64,000 bases of DNA from Sphaerotilus sp. (GTDB taxonomy: Bacteria > Pseudomonadota > Gammaproteobacteria > Burkholderiales > Burkholderiaceae_C). The stretch spans positions 34,164 to 98,163 of the forward strand of contig JAAFKB010000002.1 in NCBI GenBank assembly GCA_013299055.1, in the 5' to 3' direction. The notes beneath the pieces are model-generated. The model ran no database searches. It worked only from the letters and a program-made list of their open reading frames with translations, and had not been told where the DNA came from. The position numbers and the translations under genes were made by a program. Every line of letters starts with the position of its first letter. Positions within the stretch are counted from its first letter, which is position 1. Below are positions 55,784 to 61,720 of this stretch, one piece after another.

Positions 55784-57322
55784 ATGAACACTTGTCTGAT
55801 TCACCCTCTGCGCGGTGTTGGCGTAGCGTACTGTCTGGCGCTGCTGGGCGGATGTGCCACGGTGGCGCCCGTGCCGCTGACCGACGATGAACTCCACCGT
55901 GCCGTGTCCTCCTCGGTGGAGCGCGTTGCTGCGCGCCAGGAGCCGATTGCCGCACCCATCGGCCTGTACGAGGCCATGGCCCGGGCGCTCAAGTACAACC
56001 TGGACTACCGCGTGGAGCTGATGTCCCAGGCGCTGCGTGTGAGCGAGCTGGACCTGACGCGCTACGACATGCTGCCGCAACTGGTGGCCAACGCTGGCTA
56101 CAGCGCGCGCAACAACCAGGCAGGATCCAGCAGCCTGTCGCTGCTGAGCGGTCGAGAGTCGCTGGAGCCGTCCACCTCGACCGACCGGCGCCTGTTCACG
56201 TCCGATCTGACGCTGTCGTGGGACATCCTCGACTTTGGCTTGTCTTATGTGCGTGCGCAGCAGAAGGCCGATGAAGTGCTGGGCACCATGGAACAGCGCC
56301 GCAAGGTGGCCAACCGGATCGTCGAGGACGTGCGCACGGCCTATTGGCGTGCGGTGAGTGCCGAGCGGCTGCTGGACAAGATGCAGGAGCTGGAAACCAC
56401 GGTGCGCAGCGCCCTGGAAGAGTCGCGCACGCTGGAAAAGCGGGGTACCACCTCGCCGCTGGCTGCCCTGAATTTCCAGCGAGAGCTGATCCAGATCCGG
56501 GCCGAACTCCAGCGCCTGCAGCGTGACCTGGTCATCTCCAAGCGCCAGCTGGGGGCCCTGATGAACGTGCCACCCGAGCAGGATTTCCAGCTGGTGCTGC
56601 CGGCCCGCGAGTCCACGGCCCAGGGCATCGACATGACCCCGAGCGACATGCTGACCAGTGCGCTGTACCACCGCCCGGAGCTGCGCGAGGTGCGCTATCG
56701 GGCACGGGTGAACCGCCGGGAGATGGAGGTCGTGCTGCTCAAGGCCATGCCCAGCCTGAAAGCATTCGCAGGGATCCAGTACGACTCGAATTCCTATCTG
56801 TACCAGCAGGACTGGGTCGGCATGGGCGCCCGCGCCAGCTGGAACCTGATCAACGTCTACCGCTATCCGGCGGCCAAGAAGGCGGTGCAGGACCAGCAGG
56901 CCCTGCTGAGCGAGCGCGAGCTGGCCCTGACGATGGCGGTGATGACCGAGGTGCATGTGAGCCGGATCCGGTTCGGGCACCTGTCGGCCGAGCTGGCCAC
57001 GGCGGGCGAGCGTCTGGATGTCCAGAAGCGCATCCTCGACAAGATCCGCTCGGGCATGCAGGCCGGCTCGGTCAGCCAGCAGACCCTGATCCGGGAAGAG
57101 ATGAACACGCTGACCGAAGAGGTGCGGCACGACATCGTGTTCGCTGATCTGCAGAACGCCCGTGCCAACACGTATGCTGCCATCGGCATGGACACCTTCG
57201 GTCCGGAGGTCTCCGGGCGCGAGTCGATCACCACGCTGGCGGCGTCGCTGGAGCGGCTGTGGACCGGACGCGAGCGGGGCCAGGATCCCGCTGTGACGCC
57301 GGCCTCGGGGAGCGCACGATGA
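55784..57322 (+). CDS. TolC-family outer membrane efflux lipoprotein
   Basis: Lipobox LLGGC; duplicated TolC/OEP coiled-coil domains (LSWDILDFGLSYVRAQQKADEVL..., ASWNLINVYRYPAAKKAVQDQQ). Confidence 0.88.
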   Translation: MNTCLIHPLRGVGVAYCLALLGGCATVAPVPLTDDELHRAVSSSVERVAARQEPIAAPIGLYEAMARALKYNLDYRVELMSQALRVSELDLTRYDMLPQLVANAGYSARNNQAGSSSLSLLSGRESLEPSTSTDRRLFTSDLTLSWDILDFGLSYVRAQQKADEVLGTMEQRRKVANRIVEDVRTAYWRAVSAERLLDKMQELETTVRSALEESRTLEKRGTTSPLAALNFQRELIQIRAELQRLQRDLVISKRQLGALMNVPPEQDFQLVLPARESTAQGIDMTPSDMLTSALYHRPELREVRYRARVNRREMEVVLLKAMPSLKAFAGIQYDSNSYLYQQDWVGMGARASWNLINVYRYPAAKKAVQDQQALLSERELALTMAVMTEVHVSRIRFGHLSAELATAGERLDVQKRILDKIRSGMQAGSVSQQTLIREEMNTLTEEVRHDIVFADLQNARANTYAAIGMDTFGPEVSGRESITTLAASLERLWTGRERGQDPAVTPASGSAR

Positions 57323-58143
57323 GCGCCACCTCCAGATTCCGGCATGGCGTGTGGACGCTGGCGAGCCTTCTGCTGGGTGGACCGGCTGTCGCCGCTGCGC
57401 CCGTGGCGTCCACGGTGGCCGCTGTATCCGCAGTGGCTGCCCCCGTGGTGGTGGCAGCGCCGACGCCTGCCGCCGCGGGCGACGCCGTGCGTGGGGTGGT
57501 CCGTGCCCGCCACGTCGCGGTCCTGTCGTCTCGCTTGTCGGCCTTGATCACACGGCTGCCGTTCCAGGAGGGGCAGGCGTTCCGCAAGGGTGACTTGCTG
57601 GTGGCCTTCGACTGCGAGCGGCAGCAGGCAGAGTCCCGAGCCGCCGCGGCGGCCCACCGTGCGCACCAGAAGACCTTCGAGGTGCAGAGCGAGCTGCTCA
57701 GCCACCAGGCGATCGGGCGCATGGAGGTGGAAGTGACCCAGTCCCAGATGGACAAGGCGGCGGCGGATGTGGCGGCGCTGGCGGCCGTGCTGCGGGAGTG
57801 TCAGGTCCATGCGCCCTACGCCGGGCGTGTGGTGGAGGCGCTGGCACAGGCCCACGAGGTGGCCGGCCAGGGGCAGCCGCTCCTGCGCATCCAGGGACTG
57901 GACGATCTGGAGGTCCAGCTCATCGTGCCATCGCTGTGGATGTCGTGGCTGCGTCCGGGCACAGGCTTTTCGTTCCGGATCGATGAAACCGGGGAGTCGG
58001 TGAGCGCCGCCGTCACGCGGGTGGGGGCGGCGGTCGATCCGGTCAGCCAGACGGTGAAGCTCATGGCGCGCCTGCCGGGCGGGCGCGTCCAGGTCCTGCC
58101 GGGAATGAGTGGCACGGCGGAATTCAAGCGGTCGACTCGCTGA
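57319..58143 (+). CDS. HlyD/AcrA-type periplasmic adaptor
   Basis: Signal peptide; biotinyl-lipoyl-like LITRLPFQEGQAFRKGDLLVAFDCERQQAE, coiled coil, VHAPYAGRVVEAL; ATGA overlap with upstream gene. Confidence 0.87.
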   Translation: MSATSRFRHGVWTLASLLLGGPAVAAAPVASTVAAVSAVAAPVVVAAPTPAAAGDAVRGVVRARHVAVLSSRLSALITRLPFQEGQAFRKGDLLVAFDCERQQAESRAAAAAHRAHQKTFEVQSELLSHQAIGRMEVEVTQSQMDKAAADVAALAAVLRECQVHAPYAGRVVEALAQAHEVAGQGQPLLRIQGLDDLEVQLIVPSLWMSWLRPGTGFSFRIDETGESVSAAVTRVGAAVDPVSQTVKLMARLPGGRVQVLPGMSGTAEFKRSTR

Positions 58144-58154
58144 GAGGAGGGGCC

Positions 58155-59513
58155 ATGCCTGAGGTGACACCCTCCCCGTCGGCGGCGCCAAGCGGTGCTG
58201 TCTCGCTGCTGCAGTTCGAAGCCGAGGTGCGCCAGCAGGCCACGCTGGGCGAGCTGCGCTTCCATCTGGTCAACGAGATGCGCCGGGTGCTGCGCTTTCG
58301 CCAGGGATTCGCCCTGGAGGTGTTCTCGGGGAACCGGGTGCAGGTCATGGCGGTGTCCAGCCTGGCGACGGTCGATGCCGACTCCGGGCTGGTGCGCTGG
58401 GCCCATGCCACTCTGCAGGGGCTGCAGGCCGACGCTGGACTGGCACGGCTGCTGTGCTTTGACGCCAAGGCGTACGCCGATCCTGCGCTGGACACCGGGC
58501 TGGACTATCCCTTCACATTCCTGATGTGGCTGCCGCTGCAAGACCGTGCCGGTGTCGTGTTCGCCGGGGCGCTGCTGGCCGACAGCCAGCCCTGGCGCCA
58601 GGCGGATCTGGTGATCGCCACCCGCCTGGGCGCGACCTACGCCCATGCCTGGCTGGCGCTCGCGCCCCACCAGGGTTCGCGGTGGTGGCTGCCACCGTGG
58701 CGTGCCAGCCGCTGGTGGTGGCTGGGGGCTGGCACGGCGGCCGTGGGTGTGCTGGCGTTGCCGGTGCGCTTGAGCGCGTTGGCACCAGTCGAGGTCAGCC
58801 CGGCGCAGCCTGTGGTGCTGGCAGCGCCGATCCAGGGCGTGATCCACAAGGTCCACGTCGCGCCGAACACGGCGGTCAAGGCCGGTGAGGTGGTCCTGAG
58901 TTTCGATGACACGCGCTTGCGCAATGAGCTGGCATTGGCCGAGCAGCGGCTGGCGGTGGCGCAGGCCCGCACGCTGCGCTCTTCCCAGGCCGCCTTCGGC
59001 TCCAGCGAGGCCAGCCATGACGTGGCCATCAACCGGGCTGAACTGGATCTGGCCACGGCAGAGCGCCAGTACGCCGCCGATGCGCTGGCGCGCACCCGTC
59101 TGACGGCTCCGATGGACGGGGTGGTGGTCTACAGCGACCGGCGTGATCTGGAAGGCCGTCCGGTCGAGATCGGGCAGCAGCTGCTGTTGCTGGCCGATCC
59201 GAGCCGGGTCGAGCTGCGCATCGAGCTGCCCGCCCGGGACAGCATCGTCATTGCCGACGGTGCACTGGTGACGGCGTATCTCGACAGTGCGCCGCTGGAG
59301 CCGGTGACCGCCCGGCTGGTGCGGGCCGGCTACCAGGCCCGGCCCACGGCCGACAAGGTGCTGGCCTTTCATCTGGCGGCCGAGCCTGCGGCAGAGACGC
59401 CGCTGCGCATCGGTTCTCGTGGCACGGCCCAGGTGTACGGAGACCGTGTGCCGCTGGTGTTCAAGATGTTGCGCCGGCCGCTGGCGGCGCTGCGGCAGTG
59501 GGTGGGTCTGTGA
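58155..59513 (+). CDS. GAF-like N-terminal domain / TM / HlyD-type adaptor fusion protein
   Basis: N-terminal ATLGELRFHLVNEMRRVLRFRQGFALEVFSGNRVQVMAVSSLATVDADSGLVRW (GAF-like), TM near WWWLGAGTAAVGVLALPVRL, then PIQGVIHKVHVAPNTAVKAGEVVLSFDDTRLRNEL. Confidence 0.78.
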   Translation: MPEVTPSPSAAPSGAVSLLQFEAEVRQQATLGELRFHLVNEMRRVLRFRQGFALEVFSGNRVQVMAVSSLATVDADSGLVRWAHATLQGLQADAGLARLLCFDAKAYADPALDTGLDYPFTFLMWLPLQDRAGVVFAGALLADSQPWRQADLVIATRLGATYAHAWLALAPHQGSRWWLPPWRASRWWWLGAGTAAVGVLALPVRLSALAPVEVSPAQPVVLAAPIQGVIHKVHVAPNTAVKAGEVVLSFDDTRLRNELALAEQRLAVAQARTLRSSQAAFGSSEASHDVAINRAELDLATAERQYAADALARTRLTAPMDGVVVYSDRRDLEGRPVEIGQQLLLLADPSRVELRIELPARDSIVIADGALVTAYLDSAPLEPVTARLVRAGYQARPTADKVLAFHLAAEPAAETPLRIGSRGTAQVYGDRVPLVFKMLRRPLAALRQWVGL

Positions 59514-61720
59514 GCGGGGCCATGGGGAGTCTGGCCGGGCGACCGGCAGGCGTGGCACCGACGGCGGCCTCATCTGAGACCGCATCGGCGGCCAGCAACG
59601 ATGCCTTGCCACGGCTGCGCGACGAGCTGCGCATCGAGCGTGCAGCGCCGTTGGCCGATGGCGCACCCTGCTGGACGCTCATCGACTCGGTGGCCCACCG
59701 CTATTTTCAGCTGGGGCAACGCGAGCTGGAACTGTTGCGCCACTGGAAGCTGGGCACTGGCAAGGCACTGGCCGTCGCCTTGCAGCAGCGTGGTGCGCCG
59801 CTGGGTCCGCAAGAACTGAAGGTGTTCACGGCTTTTCTGGTCCAGCATGGTCTGGTCGAGCTGGACACGCCCCAGACATCTCAGCACCTCCAGGCGCGTG
59901 CCCAGGCCCAGCGGTCCGGTGGCCTGACCTGGCTGCTGCACCACTACCTGTTCTTCCGCATTCCCTTGCTCAGACCCCAGGCGCTGCTGCGGCGCACGCT
60001 GCCCTGGGCTCGGCAGCTGTGGTCACCACCCGCCTGGATGGCCCTGGCTGCGCTGGGGCTGCTGGGGGGCTATCTCGTGTCCCGGCAGTGGGATGCCTTC
60101 GTGACGACGTTTGCCGAGATGCTGTCCTGGCGTGGGCTGCTGTCCTACCTGGCGGCGGCGGTGCTGGTCAAGACTGCGCACGAATTCGGCCATGCGTATG
60201 TCGCGACCCATTTCGGCTGTCGGGTGCCGACGATGGGGGTCGCGGTGATGATGGGGTTGCCGATGCTGTACTCGGACACCACGGCCTCGTGGCGCCTGAC
60301 GAGTCGGCGCGCCCGGGTGCTCATCGACGCGGCCGGGGTGCTGGCGGAGCTGCAGGTGGCGGTTCTTGCCACGGTGCTGTGGGCATTCTTGCCCGATGGC
60401 GCCGTGCGCGGTGCGGTCTTCGTGCTGGCCACGTCGAGCTGGATGATGTCGCTGGCCGTCAACCTGAACCCCTTCATGCGGTTCGACGGGTATTACCTGC
60501 TGTCCGATGCCCTGGGGCAACCCAATCTGCAGCCGCGGGCGTTCGCGCTGGCGCAGTGGCATCTGCGGGAGGTCCTGCTGGGGCTGGGGGCGCAAGTGCC
60601 CGAGCCCCTCACGCCCAGTGTCCGGCGCGGCATGATCCTCTACGCTTGGGCGACCTGGGTGTACCGGGTGGTGCTGTACGCCGGGATTGCGCTCGCGGTG
60701 TACCACGCGTTTTTCAAGCTCCTGGGACTGGTGCTGTTCGCGGTCGAGGTGGGCTGGTTCCTCGTGCGGCCGGCCTGGACTGAACTGCGGCTGTGGTGGG
60801 GGTGGCGGGCGAAGATCGGCCAGTCCTGGCGTGCCCGCTGGATGGGTGTCGGACTGGCGGGGCTGCTGCTGCTGGGGGTGTTGCCACTGGACCGCAGCGT
60901 GAGCCTGCCGGCGGTGCTGGCCCCGACCCAGGAGGTGCCGCTGTTTCCGCCCGCACCGGCGCAGATCATCGCAGTGCTGGTCCGCGATGGCCAGCAGGTG
61001 CAGCAGGGGCAGGTGCTCATGCGACTGGCGTCGCCGATGCTGGTGCATGAGCAGGCGCTGGCACAGACCCGGCTGAACCTGGCCCGTGCCCGGCTCAACC
61101 GCATCGCGGGTGCCCCACGCGAGCTGGCCCAGGCGCTGGTGCTGGCGCGGGATGTGGACATGCACCAGCGTGCCTTGCAGTCGCTGAACGAACAGCAGGC
61201 CTTGCTGGAGATCCGCGCGCCGTTCGATGGCCGGCTGCTGGATGTCGACGCAGGCCTGCACGCCGGTCGGTGGGTGGACCGTCAGCAGGTGCTGGGCCGG
61301 GTGGTGAGCGGCGAGCAGCTGGATCTGCGGGCCTATGTACCCGAAACCCATGTCTGGCGCCTGGCGCTGGGACAGACGGCGCGCTTCCTGGCAGACGATG
61401 CCCGCCTGGCGCCACTCGACGCACGGGTGGCGGAAATCGCAGGGCAGGCCAGCCAGACGATCGATCTGCCGCTGCTCAGCGCCACGTACGACGGTCCGAT
61501 CGCCATACGGGACGATGTGTCCAGCGGGCTCAAGCCGCTGCAGGCCCAGTACCACGTCCGCCTGACCCCGGATGCGGCCTCGCTGGCCAGCGCGACGGCC
61601 AAGGCGGGGGTGCCGCGCCAGATCGTGGGCTCGGTGCATCTGGAGGCCGAGCCGCAGAGCTGGCTGTCGACCGTGGCTGCCCAGATCCTGCGGGTACTGG
61701 CCCGGGAAGCGGACCTCTGA
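59510..61720 (+). CDS. M50 (site-2-protease-like) membrane metallopeptidase with PqqD-like N-terminus and HlyD-like C-terminus
   Basis: HEFGH zinc motif (60179-60193), NLNPFMRFDGYYL second motif (60461-60499), N-terminal WTLIDSVAHRYFQLGQRELELLRHW, C-terminal PLFPPAPAQIIAVLVRDGQQVQQGQVLMRL and LLEIRAPFDGRLLDVD; GTGA overlap with upstream gene. Confidence 0.87.
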   Translation: MSGAMGSLAGRPAGVAPTAASSETASAASNDALPRLRDELRIERAAPLADGAPCWTLIDSVAHRYFQLGQRELELLRHWKLGTGKALAVALQQRGAPLGPQELKVFTAFLVQHGLVELDTPQTSQHLQARAQAQRSGGLTWLLHHYLFFRIPLLRPQALLRRTLPWARQLWSPPAWMALAALGLLGGYLVSRQWDAFVTTFAEMLSWRGLLSYLAAAVLVKTAHEFGHAYVATHFGCRVPTMGVAVMMGLPMLYSDTTASWRLTSRRARVLIDAAGVLAELQVAVLATVLWAFLPDGAVRGAVFVLATSSWMMSLAVNLNPFMRFDGYYLLSDALGQPNLQPRAFALAQWHLREVLLGLGAQVPEPLTPSVRRGMILYAWATWVYRVVLYAGIALAVYHAFFKLLGLVLFAVEVGWFLVRPAWTELRLWWGWRAKIGQSWRARWMGVGLAGLLLLGVLPLDRSVSLPAVLAPTQEVPLFPPAPAQIIAVLVRDGQQVQQGQVLMRLASPMLVHEQALAQTRLNLARARLNRIAGAPRELAQALVLARDVDMHQRALQSLNEQQALLEIRAPFDGRLLDVDAGLHAGRWVDRQQVLGRVVSGEQLDLRAYVPETHVWRLALGQTARFLADDARLAPLDARVAEIAGQASQTIDLPLLSATYDGPIAIRDDVSSGLKPLQAQYHVRLTPDAASLASATAKAGVPRQIVGSVHLEAEPQSWLSTVAAQILRVLAREADL

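Follow-up and report, generated by a model that had tools for sequence, protein, structure and literature searches.

In LapA/LapBCE-type Type I secretion, an HlyD adaptor and a TolC-family channel are encoded beside a giant repeat adhesin. The M50 proteases of the daptide and YydH/LiaK epipeptide systems have the HExxH M50 fold and, in some of them, an N-terminal PqqD-like domain, and in Gram-positive bacteria the accessory SecA2 is a second SecA-like ATPase that serves a giant repeat adhesin whose N-terminal signal is unusual. Here we describe a four-gene cluster at positions 55784 to 61720 of a 64,000-nucleotide stretch of Sphaerotilus sp. DNA (contig JAAFKB010000002.1; hereafter the window, meaning the whole stretch), which is part of a 4.1 Mb genome assembled as 239 contigs. 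The cluster ends in a gene for an M50-HlyD fusion protein, and in related genomes it is accompanied by giant repeat proteins with a shared N-terminal leader. We propose, with a probability of about 0.7, that these genes form a machine dedicated to exporting giant repeat adhesins that bear an N-terminal LExRxxFDAA/FDGA leader and to displaying them on the cell surface, by the steps set out below.

A preliminary description of this DNA had read the four genes as a TolC-like lipoprotein, two HlyD adaptors, the second with a sensor-like domain, and an M50-HlyD fusion. Their coordinates and strand held, and Pfam OEP, HlyD and Peptidase_M50 matches agreed with the assignments. The features are:

55784..57322, + strand: gene 1, TolC-family outer-membrane protein, predicted lipoprotein (Pfam OEP, E=3.7e-31; LLGGC lipobox with Cys24, from the translation)
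57319..58143, + strand: gene 2, periplasmic HlyD-family adaptor with an N-terminal hydrophobic signal (HlyD_3, E=2.4e-15; RND_mfp TIGR01730 above cut-off)
58155..59513, + strand: gene 3, second HlyD adaptor with a cytosolic, weakly GAF-like N-domain (about residues 1-180) and one transmembrane segment (HlyD_3, E=1.6e-13)
59510..61720, + strand: gene 4, fusion of a RiPP (ribosomally synthesized and post-translationally modified peptide) recognition element (RRE)-like domain, an M50 intramembrane metalloprotease and HlyD, with a GTG start (domain, motif and fold evidence)
59615..59854, + strand: predicted N-terminal PqqD/RRE-like domain, residues 36-115 of M50-HlyD (AlphaFold2, Foldseek and hhalign; PqqD by Pfam in paralogues)
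60179..60193, + strand: HEFGH zinc-binding motif, residues 224-228 of M50-HlyD (H, E and H invariant in 27 aligned homologues)
60485..60487, + strand: Asp326 of NPxxRxDG, the expected third catalytic M50 ligand (invariant in the same 27 homologues)
60890..61717, + strand: C-terminal HlyD domain of the M50 fusion, barrel-sandwich plus hairpin (Foldseek; HlyD_3, E=1.6e-11)

Genes 1 and 2 overlap by ATGA and genes 3 and 4 by GTGA, as had been described, but the overlap expected between genes 2 and 3 is an 11-base gap (stop at 58143, ATG at 58155). The flanking genes named before were both confirmed, with a SpoU rRNA methylase upstream and ppsR (Kinase-PPPase) downstream on the opposite strand. 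Gene 3 does encode an adaptor with a cytosolic domain, but the label 'sensor-like' is weak: a Pfam search with the N-domain of the window protein gave zero matches, and among 18 homologues Pfam recognised GAF in 3, at E 5e-4 at best. The Peptidase_M50 match of gene 4 (E 1e-4) lies slightly below the Pfam gathering score; both hallmarks of peptidase family M50, HExxH and a downstream NPxxxDG in membrane helices, are present as HEFGH and NPxxRxDG.

To place the cluster, 85,462 genomes were scanned for the M50 protein, which yielded 519 relatives, and 80 loci with flanks were retained for comparison. The closest outside match came from a Sphaerotilus metagenome genome (65%). The order TolC, HlyD, GAF/HlyD, M50/HlyD is kept in Alpha-, Beta- and Gammaproteobacteria and Nitrospira, and a TolC-gene homologue is found in 64 of the clustered loci. 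The cluster is far beyond chance, since dozens of loci repeat its gene order, with identities of 34-65%. No ABC, RND or MFS pump gene is encoded within the window cluster, in agreement with the preliminary description, and neighbour-gene clustering of the 80 loci gave no recurring family of these types beside it. ABC ATPases occur near 14 of the homologous loci, where they are scattered and distant and look uptake-type on sequence reading. The conventional ABC or RND pump that had been named beforehand as evidence against the earlier interpretation was found neither in these loci nor in the plasmid units described below. Of the components of Type I secretion, the HlyD adaptor and the TolC channel are present, and the inner-membrane ABC exporter is absent from the cluster and from the conserved neighbourhood of the 80 loci; the energised inner-membrane pump (RND, MFS or ABC) of tripartite multidrug efflux is missing as well.

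The recurring substrate gene that a neighbourhood analysis was expected to reveal proved to encode a giant repeat adhesin that bears a leader of the LEPR type. A giant repeat protein was found in 60 of the 80 loci, of a very large cadherin/Ig-repeat type in 54 and a similar repeat protein in 6 from Azospirillum. Drug efflux was rejected on the missing pump and this recurring giant substrate. Among 24 giants whose start lay in the fetched DNA, 22 carry a LExRxxFDAA or FDGA leader (one as the type-B variant introduced below) within about 80 N-terminal residues, and DUF4347 usually comes next. The remaining two (L011 and L057) have apparent internal starts of broken frames, L057 also containing Ns. 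The motif did not appear once when the N-termini of 1,816 open frames were shuffled. It is related to LEPR-XLL, and the type-B leader matches that NCBIfam model above cut-off. With regard to the uncleaved C-terminal secretion signal of Type I substrates, the C-termini of the giants differ between clades, some being conserved, and the exporter-linked feature is the N-terminal leader. A natural mini-substrate of 370 residues in one Sphaerotilus relative, directly upstream of TolC, consists of the leader, DUF4347 and a C-terminal domain, with no repeats.

Two further observations were made on the giants. The C-terminal 160 residues of giants L012-L041 form a conserved domain with LPxWIRxDxRGLAI and a final LLAAF-like tail, seen in many type-A substrates, which is a possible anchor or second export signal. 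Very long open frames with DUF4347 or leader matches were also encountered (G066:C1:2731072, 14,920 aa; G074:C29, 11,649 aa), as was one of 19,427 aa with a marginal leader match (G121:C115).

Leader and exporter are strongly paired across genomes. A single fixed set of 348 proteobacterial genomes was searched with profiles for the exporter, DUF4347 and the 26-residue leader (E up to 0.005). The leader and the type-A exporter occurred together in 56 genomes, the leader only in 1, the exporter only in 1 and neither in 290 (descriptive Fisher p ~1e-62), and every leader-bearing genome had some M50-HlyD protein. The pairing of DUF4347 with the exporter was looser, with 56 genomes having both, 17 DUF4347 only, 18 the exporter only and 257 neither (descriptive p 1.6e-33). 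The 17 genomes with DUF4347 giants and no exporter served as a natural control, and none of them had the leader. Ten exporter-less DUF4347 loci were read: ordinary Sec signals were found in 4, an adjoining ABC and HlyD pair in 1, and the leader was simply absent in 5. Some DUF4347 proteins from exporter-less loci have tails like those of Type I secretion system (T1SS) substrates. Moreover, in two exporter genomes lacking DUF4347, leader-bearing giants adjoin the exporter. DUF4347 was thus rejected as the recognition element, because exporter-less DUF4347 proteins use other signals and DUF4347-less exporter genomes keep the leader.

As a side observation, DUF4347 proteins without an M50 system (L257, L259, L260, L261, L263, L268) have ordinary Sec signals or ABC and HlyD neighbours, and DUF4347 is therefore carried by at least three export routes. 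By eye only, DUF4347 of L063, L032 and P0006 has conserved HxxSHG and YGC(D/N) motifs resembling the His-Cys dyad of caspase-like peptidases.

The N-terminal domain of M50-HlyD is predicted to have the RRE (PqqD) fold with three strands and three helices. AlphaFold2 modelled it as beta-beta-beta-alpha-alpha-alpha, with block-mean pLDDT >=93 over residues 31-110. The top Foldseek match in the PDB was TbiB1 with its leader peptide (5v1v; probability 1.00, TM-score 0.71 by target, E 0.018), CteB was second, and SuiB and TglHI were also matched. Alignment with stand-alone PqqD proteins by hhalign gave 89% probability (E 2.4e-6), and Pfam PqqD was found above cut-off at the same position in type-B paralogues, one of them from this genome. 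For the window domain itself, a Pfam search for PqqD gave zero matches and a PDB sequence search nothing useful, the likeness coming from profile-profile and fold comparison. As for the remainder of the protein, HExxH is present in 117/117 type-A and 22/22 type-B M50-HlyD proteins, and AlphaFold2 predicted many transmembrane helices in the M50 part. Foldseek with the full model returned ZneB, MacA and MexA on top (E 1.9e-12), with only HlyD among the matches listed. The nearest curated protease models scored below their cut-offs, NCBIfam daptide_HExxH (NF041824) at 148.7 of the 300 bits needed (E 2.5e-43) and YydH/LiaK (NF058609) at 23.6 of 225 (E 3.5e-5).

The M50-HlyD proteins split by score into two non-overlapping groups, type A (590-1037 bits), to which the window protein belongs, and type B (210-339 bits). 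Correspondingly, the leader class tracks the protease subfamily: LExRxxFDAA/FDGA goes with type A 30:0, and LEPRxLYSAD with type B, 0:11. This pairing suggests that the RRE-like domain may bind the leader peptide. Type-B loci have the gene order GAF/HlyD, M50/HlyD, SecA-like, HlyD, giant, and their SecA-like protein, which can be aligned to solved SecA structures, contains SecA_DEAD, preprotein-binding and P-loop domains. Of the 41 type-B locus records, 38 have a linked SecA-like ATPase, and of the 133 type-A records none has; the records are not all independent because some overlap. The extra SecA copies per genome match the type-B loci (1+3 in the genome of the window), and each of 18 type-A-only genomes has exactly one SecA. 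A second SecA linked to the substrate, the mark of accessory Sec (SecA2), was accordingly not found in the window's subfamily, and no SecY2 stood out among recurring neighbours of the loci, in which no SecY-directed search was made. Hence the statement that the cluster has no transport engine holds for the window cluster and type A but fails for type B, where a dedicated SecA-like ATPase lies by the M50 gene. Because the sister subfamily has its own SecA-like ATPase, the M50 protein, which had been suggested as the inner-membrane component, is probably the leader-recognising and processing subunit and not the pump itself.

Short SecA-like ATPases (about 670-740 aa) beside type-B M50-HlyD genes were observed at L141:3116-5122 (contig C24 of the window's genome) and L213:5080-7119, and also beside paralogues on contigs C1 and C207 of the same genome. 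They may represent a Gram-negative accessory Sec branch.

Plasmids offered an independent check. The plasmid records that a search returned for M50-HlyD relatives included 18 from Escherichia and 8 from Citrobacter. Whole five-gene type-A units are carried by the E. coli G5 IncHI1B plasmid (L275:4837-22215) and a Kosakonia plasmid (L274:1280-14094), both in the order giant, TolC, HlyD, HlyD, M50-HlyD and both without a pump. Their leaders, ALESRQLFDGAA in E. coli and SLEPRMLFDGAI in Kosakonia, had not been used in building the leader profile. The M50 gene was present in 24 of 5,426 E. coli genomes, and 4 of its 25 places were chromosomal.

The genome of the window has four M50-HlyD loci and four leader matches. 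Three of the matches are linked to type-B loci on contigs C1, C24 and C207, the one on C207 being marginal (E 0.007) with no clean start readable. The fourth, on contig C72, is a contig-truncated giant whose type-A leader, ALEARMMFDGAA, is almost the same as the leader of the Sphaerotilus mini-substrate. Since the other three belong to type-B loci and the C72 leader is of the type-A class, the C72 giant is probably the substrate of the window cluster.

Based on these results, export may proceed as follows. The cytosolic RRE-like domain of M50-HlyD would bind the leader of the nascent giant, as the fold and the motif pairing suggest. The Sec channel would then carry the chain across the inner membrane, with the housekeeping SecA as the motor in type A and the dedicated SecA-like ATPase in type B. 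The M50 site, given its conserved residues and position, may cleave the leader or a segment next to it, inside or close to the membrane, and thereby commit the chain, and the HlyD domains of three proteins together with the TolC lipoprotein would form a conduit to the cell surface, in line with their homology and conserved order. The protease-coupled export or display proposed in the preliminary description is thus well supported by the recurring leader-bearing giant, although the RRE-like domain, the leader and the substrate had been missed.

Several points weigh against this proposal. Leader binding, cleavage, Sec-driven crossing, the order of transport, the motor, conduit assembly and surface display are steps that we infer. 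In hydrophobicity the leaders fall short of true Sec signals (Kyte-Doolittle values 0.8-1.7 versus 1.9-2.3), so that the case for Sec in type A is made by analogy with type B. A first step by way of Sec is the most likely one for type A and at the same time the weakest link of the model. The window locus has no linked substrate, a search for a giant or a leader inside the window having found none, and linkage of the C72 giant to the exporter is unseen because of contig ends. The leader profile was derived from linked substrates, which does not in itself force the absence of the leader elsewhere, and the Fisher p values are descriptive because the genomes are phylogenetically related. The Foldseek E value for the RRE-like domain is modest, as expected for only about 80 residues.

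The poor likeness of the leaders to classical Sec signals, the lack of a motor gene in type-A loci and the many predicted transmembrane helices of the M50 part would also fit a Sec-independent route, in which M50-HlyD and its partners form an inner-membrane pore, perhaps driven by the proton-motive force, and the type-B SecA-like proteins feed this pore rather than SecY. We consider this unlikely: no M50 protease is known to act as a protein channel, and the accessory SecA has the preprotein-binding and motor domains of a true SecA. The engine could instead be a T1SS-type ABC exporter encoded elsewhere, which would make this a Type I system whose pump has moved away from the cluster. Using three curated cut-offs, we searched the 18 type-A genomes for a T1SS ABC exporter and found one above cut-off somewhere in 13; the other five (G142, G048, G083, G224, G076) had none, so that such an exporter is not required. 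As the 80 loci share no recurring ABC exporter, the plasmid units travel without one and the N-terminal leader is unlike T1SS signals, a displaced pump is quite improbable.

Dedicated proteolysis controls other giant adhesins, for instance LapG for LapA, and the GAF-like domain of gene 3 suggests signal input; the M50 protein might thus release or retain the adhesin at the surface, or be a signalling site-2 protease, instead of processing the leader. We give this little credence, because the fusion of the RRE-like domain to the protease and the correspondence of leader class and subfamily point to the N-terminal leader. Least plausible is the export of a small modified RiPP-like peptide with the giants as unrelated neighbours. 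RRE domains are typical of RiPP enzymes and the nearest M50 models are the daptide and epipeptide proteases, both below cut-off, but it is the giant protein that carries the leader motif, and across genomes this motif goes with the exporter. Among frames of at least 70 aa, no other family recurs widely by the 80 loci, which leaves a tiny precursor as a slight possibility. Export and display of leader-bearing giants therefore remains our preferred reading.

At roughly even odds in our judgement, this is a new type of Gram-negative secretion system in which RRE-M50-HlyD picks out the giant adhesins by their leader, their passage of the inner membrane is powered by Sec or a dedicated SecA, and a channel of the TolC lipoprotein displays them, with two subfamilies matching two leader classes. 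If so, TolC/HlyD conduits extend beyond ABC, RND and MFS pumps, RiPP-style leader recognition also serves the sorting of giant proteins, LEPR-XLL and DUF4347, two families of unknown role, gain a pathway, and a route is provided by which Nitrospira, many Proteobacteria of the environment and some E. coli with plasmids may display proteins between 2,000 and more than 10,000 residues long. Full-text searches of open-licence papers gave no description of the combination; a prior description in subscription literature or preprints is possible. Vibrio mfpABC was considered as a known relative and set aside, as it is reported as a membrane-fusion/biofilm locus and no link to an M50-HlyD fusion was found.

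The predicted system lies outside Type I secretion and tripartite efflux because the pump is absent, and outside the curated daptide and epipeptide protease families because it scores below their cut-offs. In contrast to LapA/LapBCE, it has no ABC transporter, its leader is N-terminal, and it includes an inner-membrane M50 protein with an RRE-like domain and two extra HlyD-bearing subunits. Unlike the daptide and YydH/LiaK proteases, the window protease is fused to HlyD and paired with TolC, and its predicted substrates are thousands of residues long. Compared with accessory SecA2, the type-B SecA-like protein is short (about 670 aa) and was seen with neither Asp proteins nor SecY2, type A has no SecA-like protein, and the substrate has an outer membrane also to cross. 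Finally, LEPR-XLL (NF012209) and DUF4347 (PF14252) are both listed without function; the type-B leader matches the former and most substrates contain the latter. The present results connect the leader with one particular exporter and add FDAA/FDGA as a second leader class.

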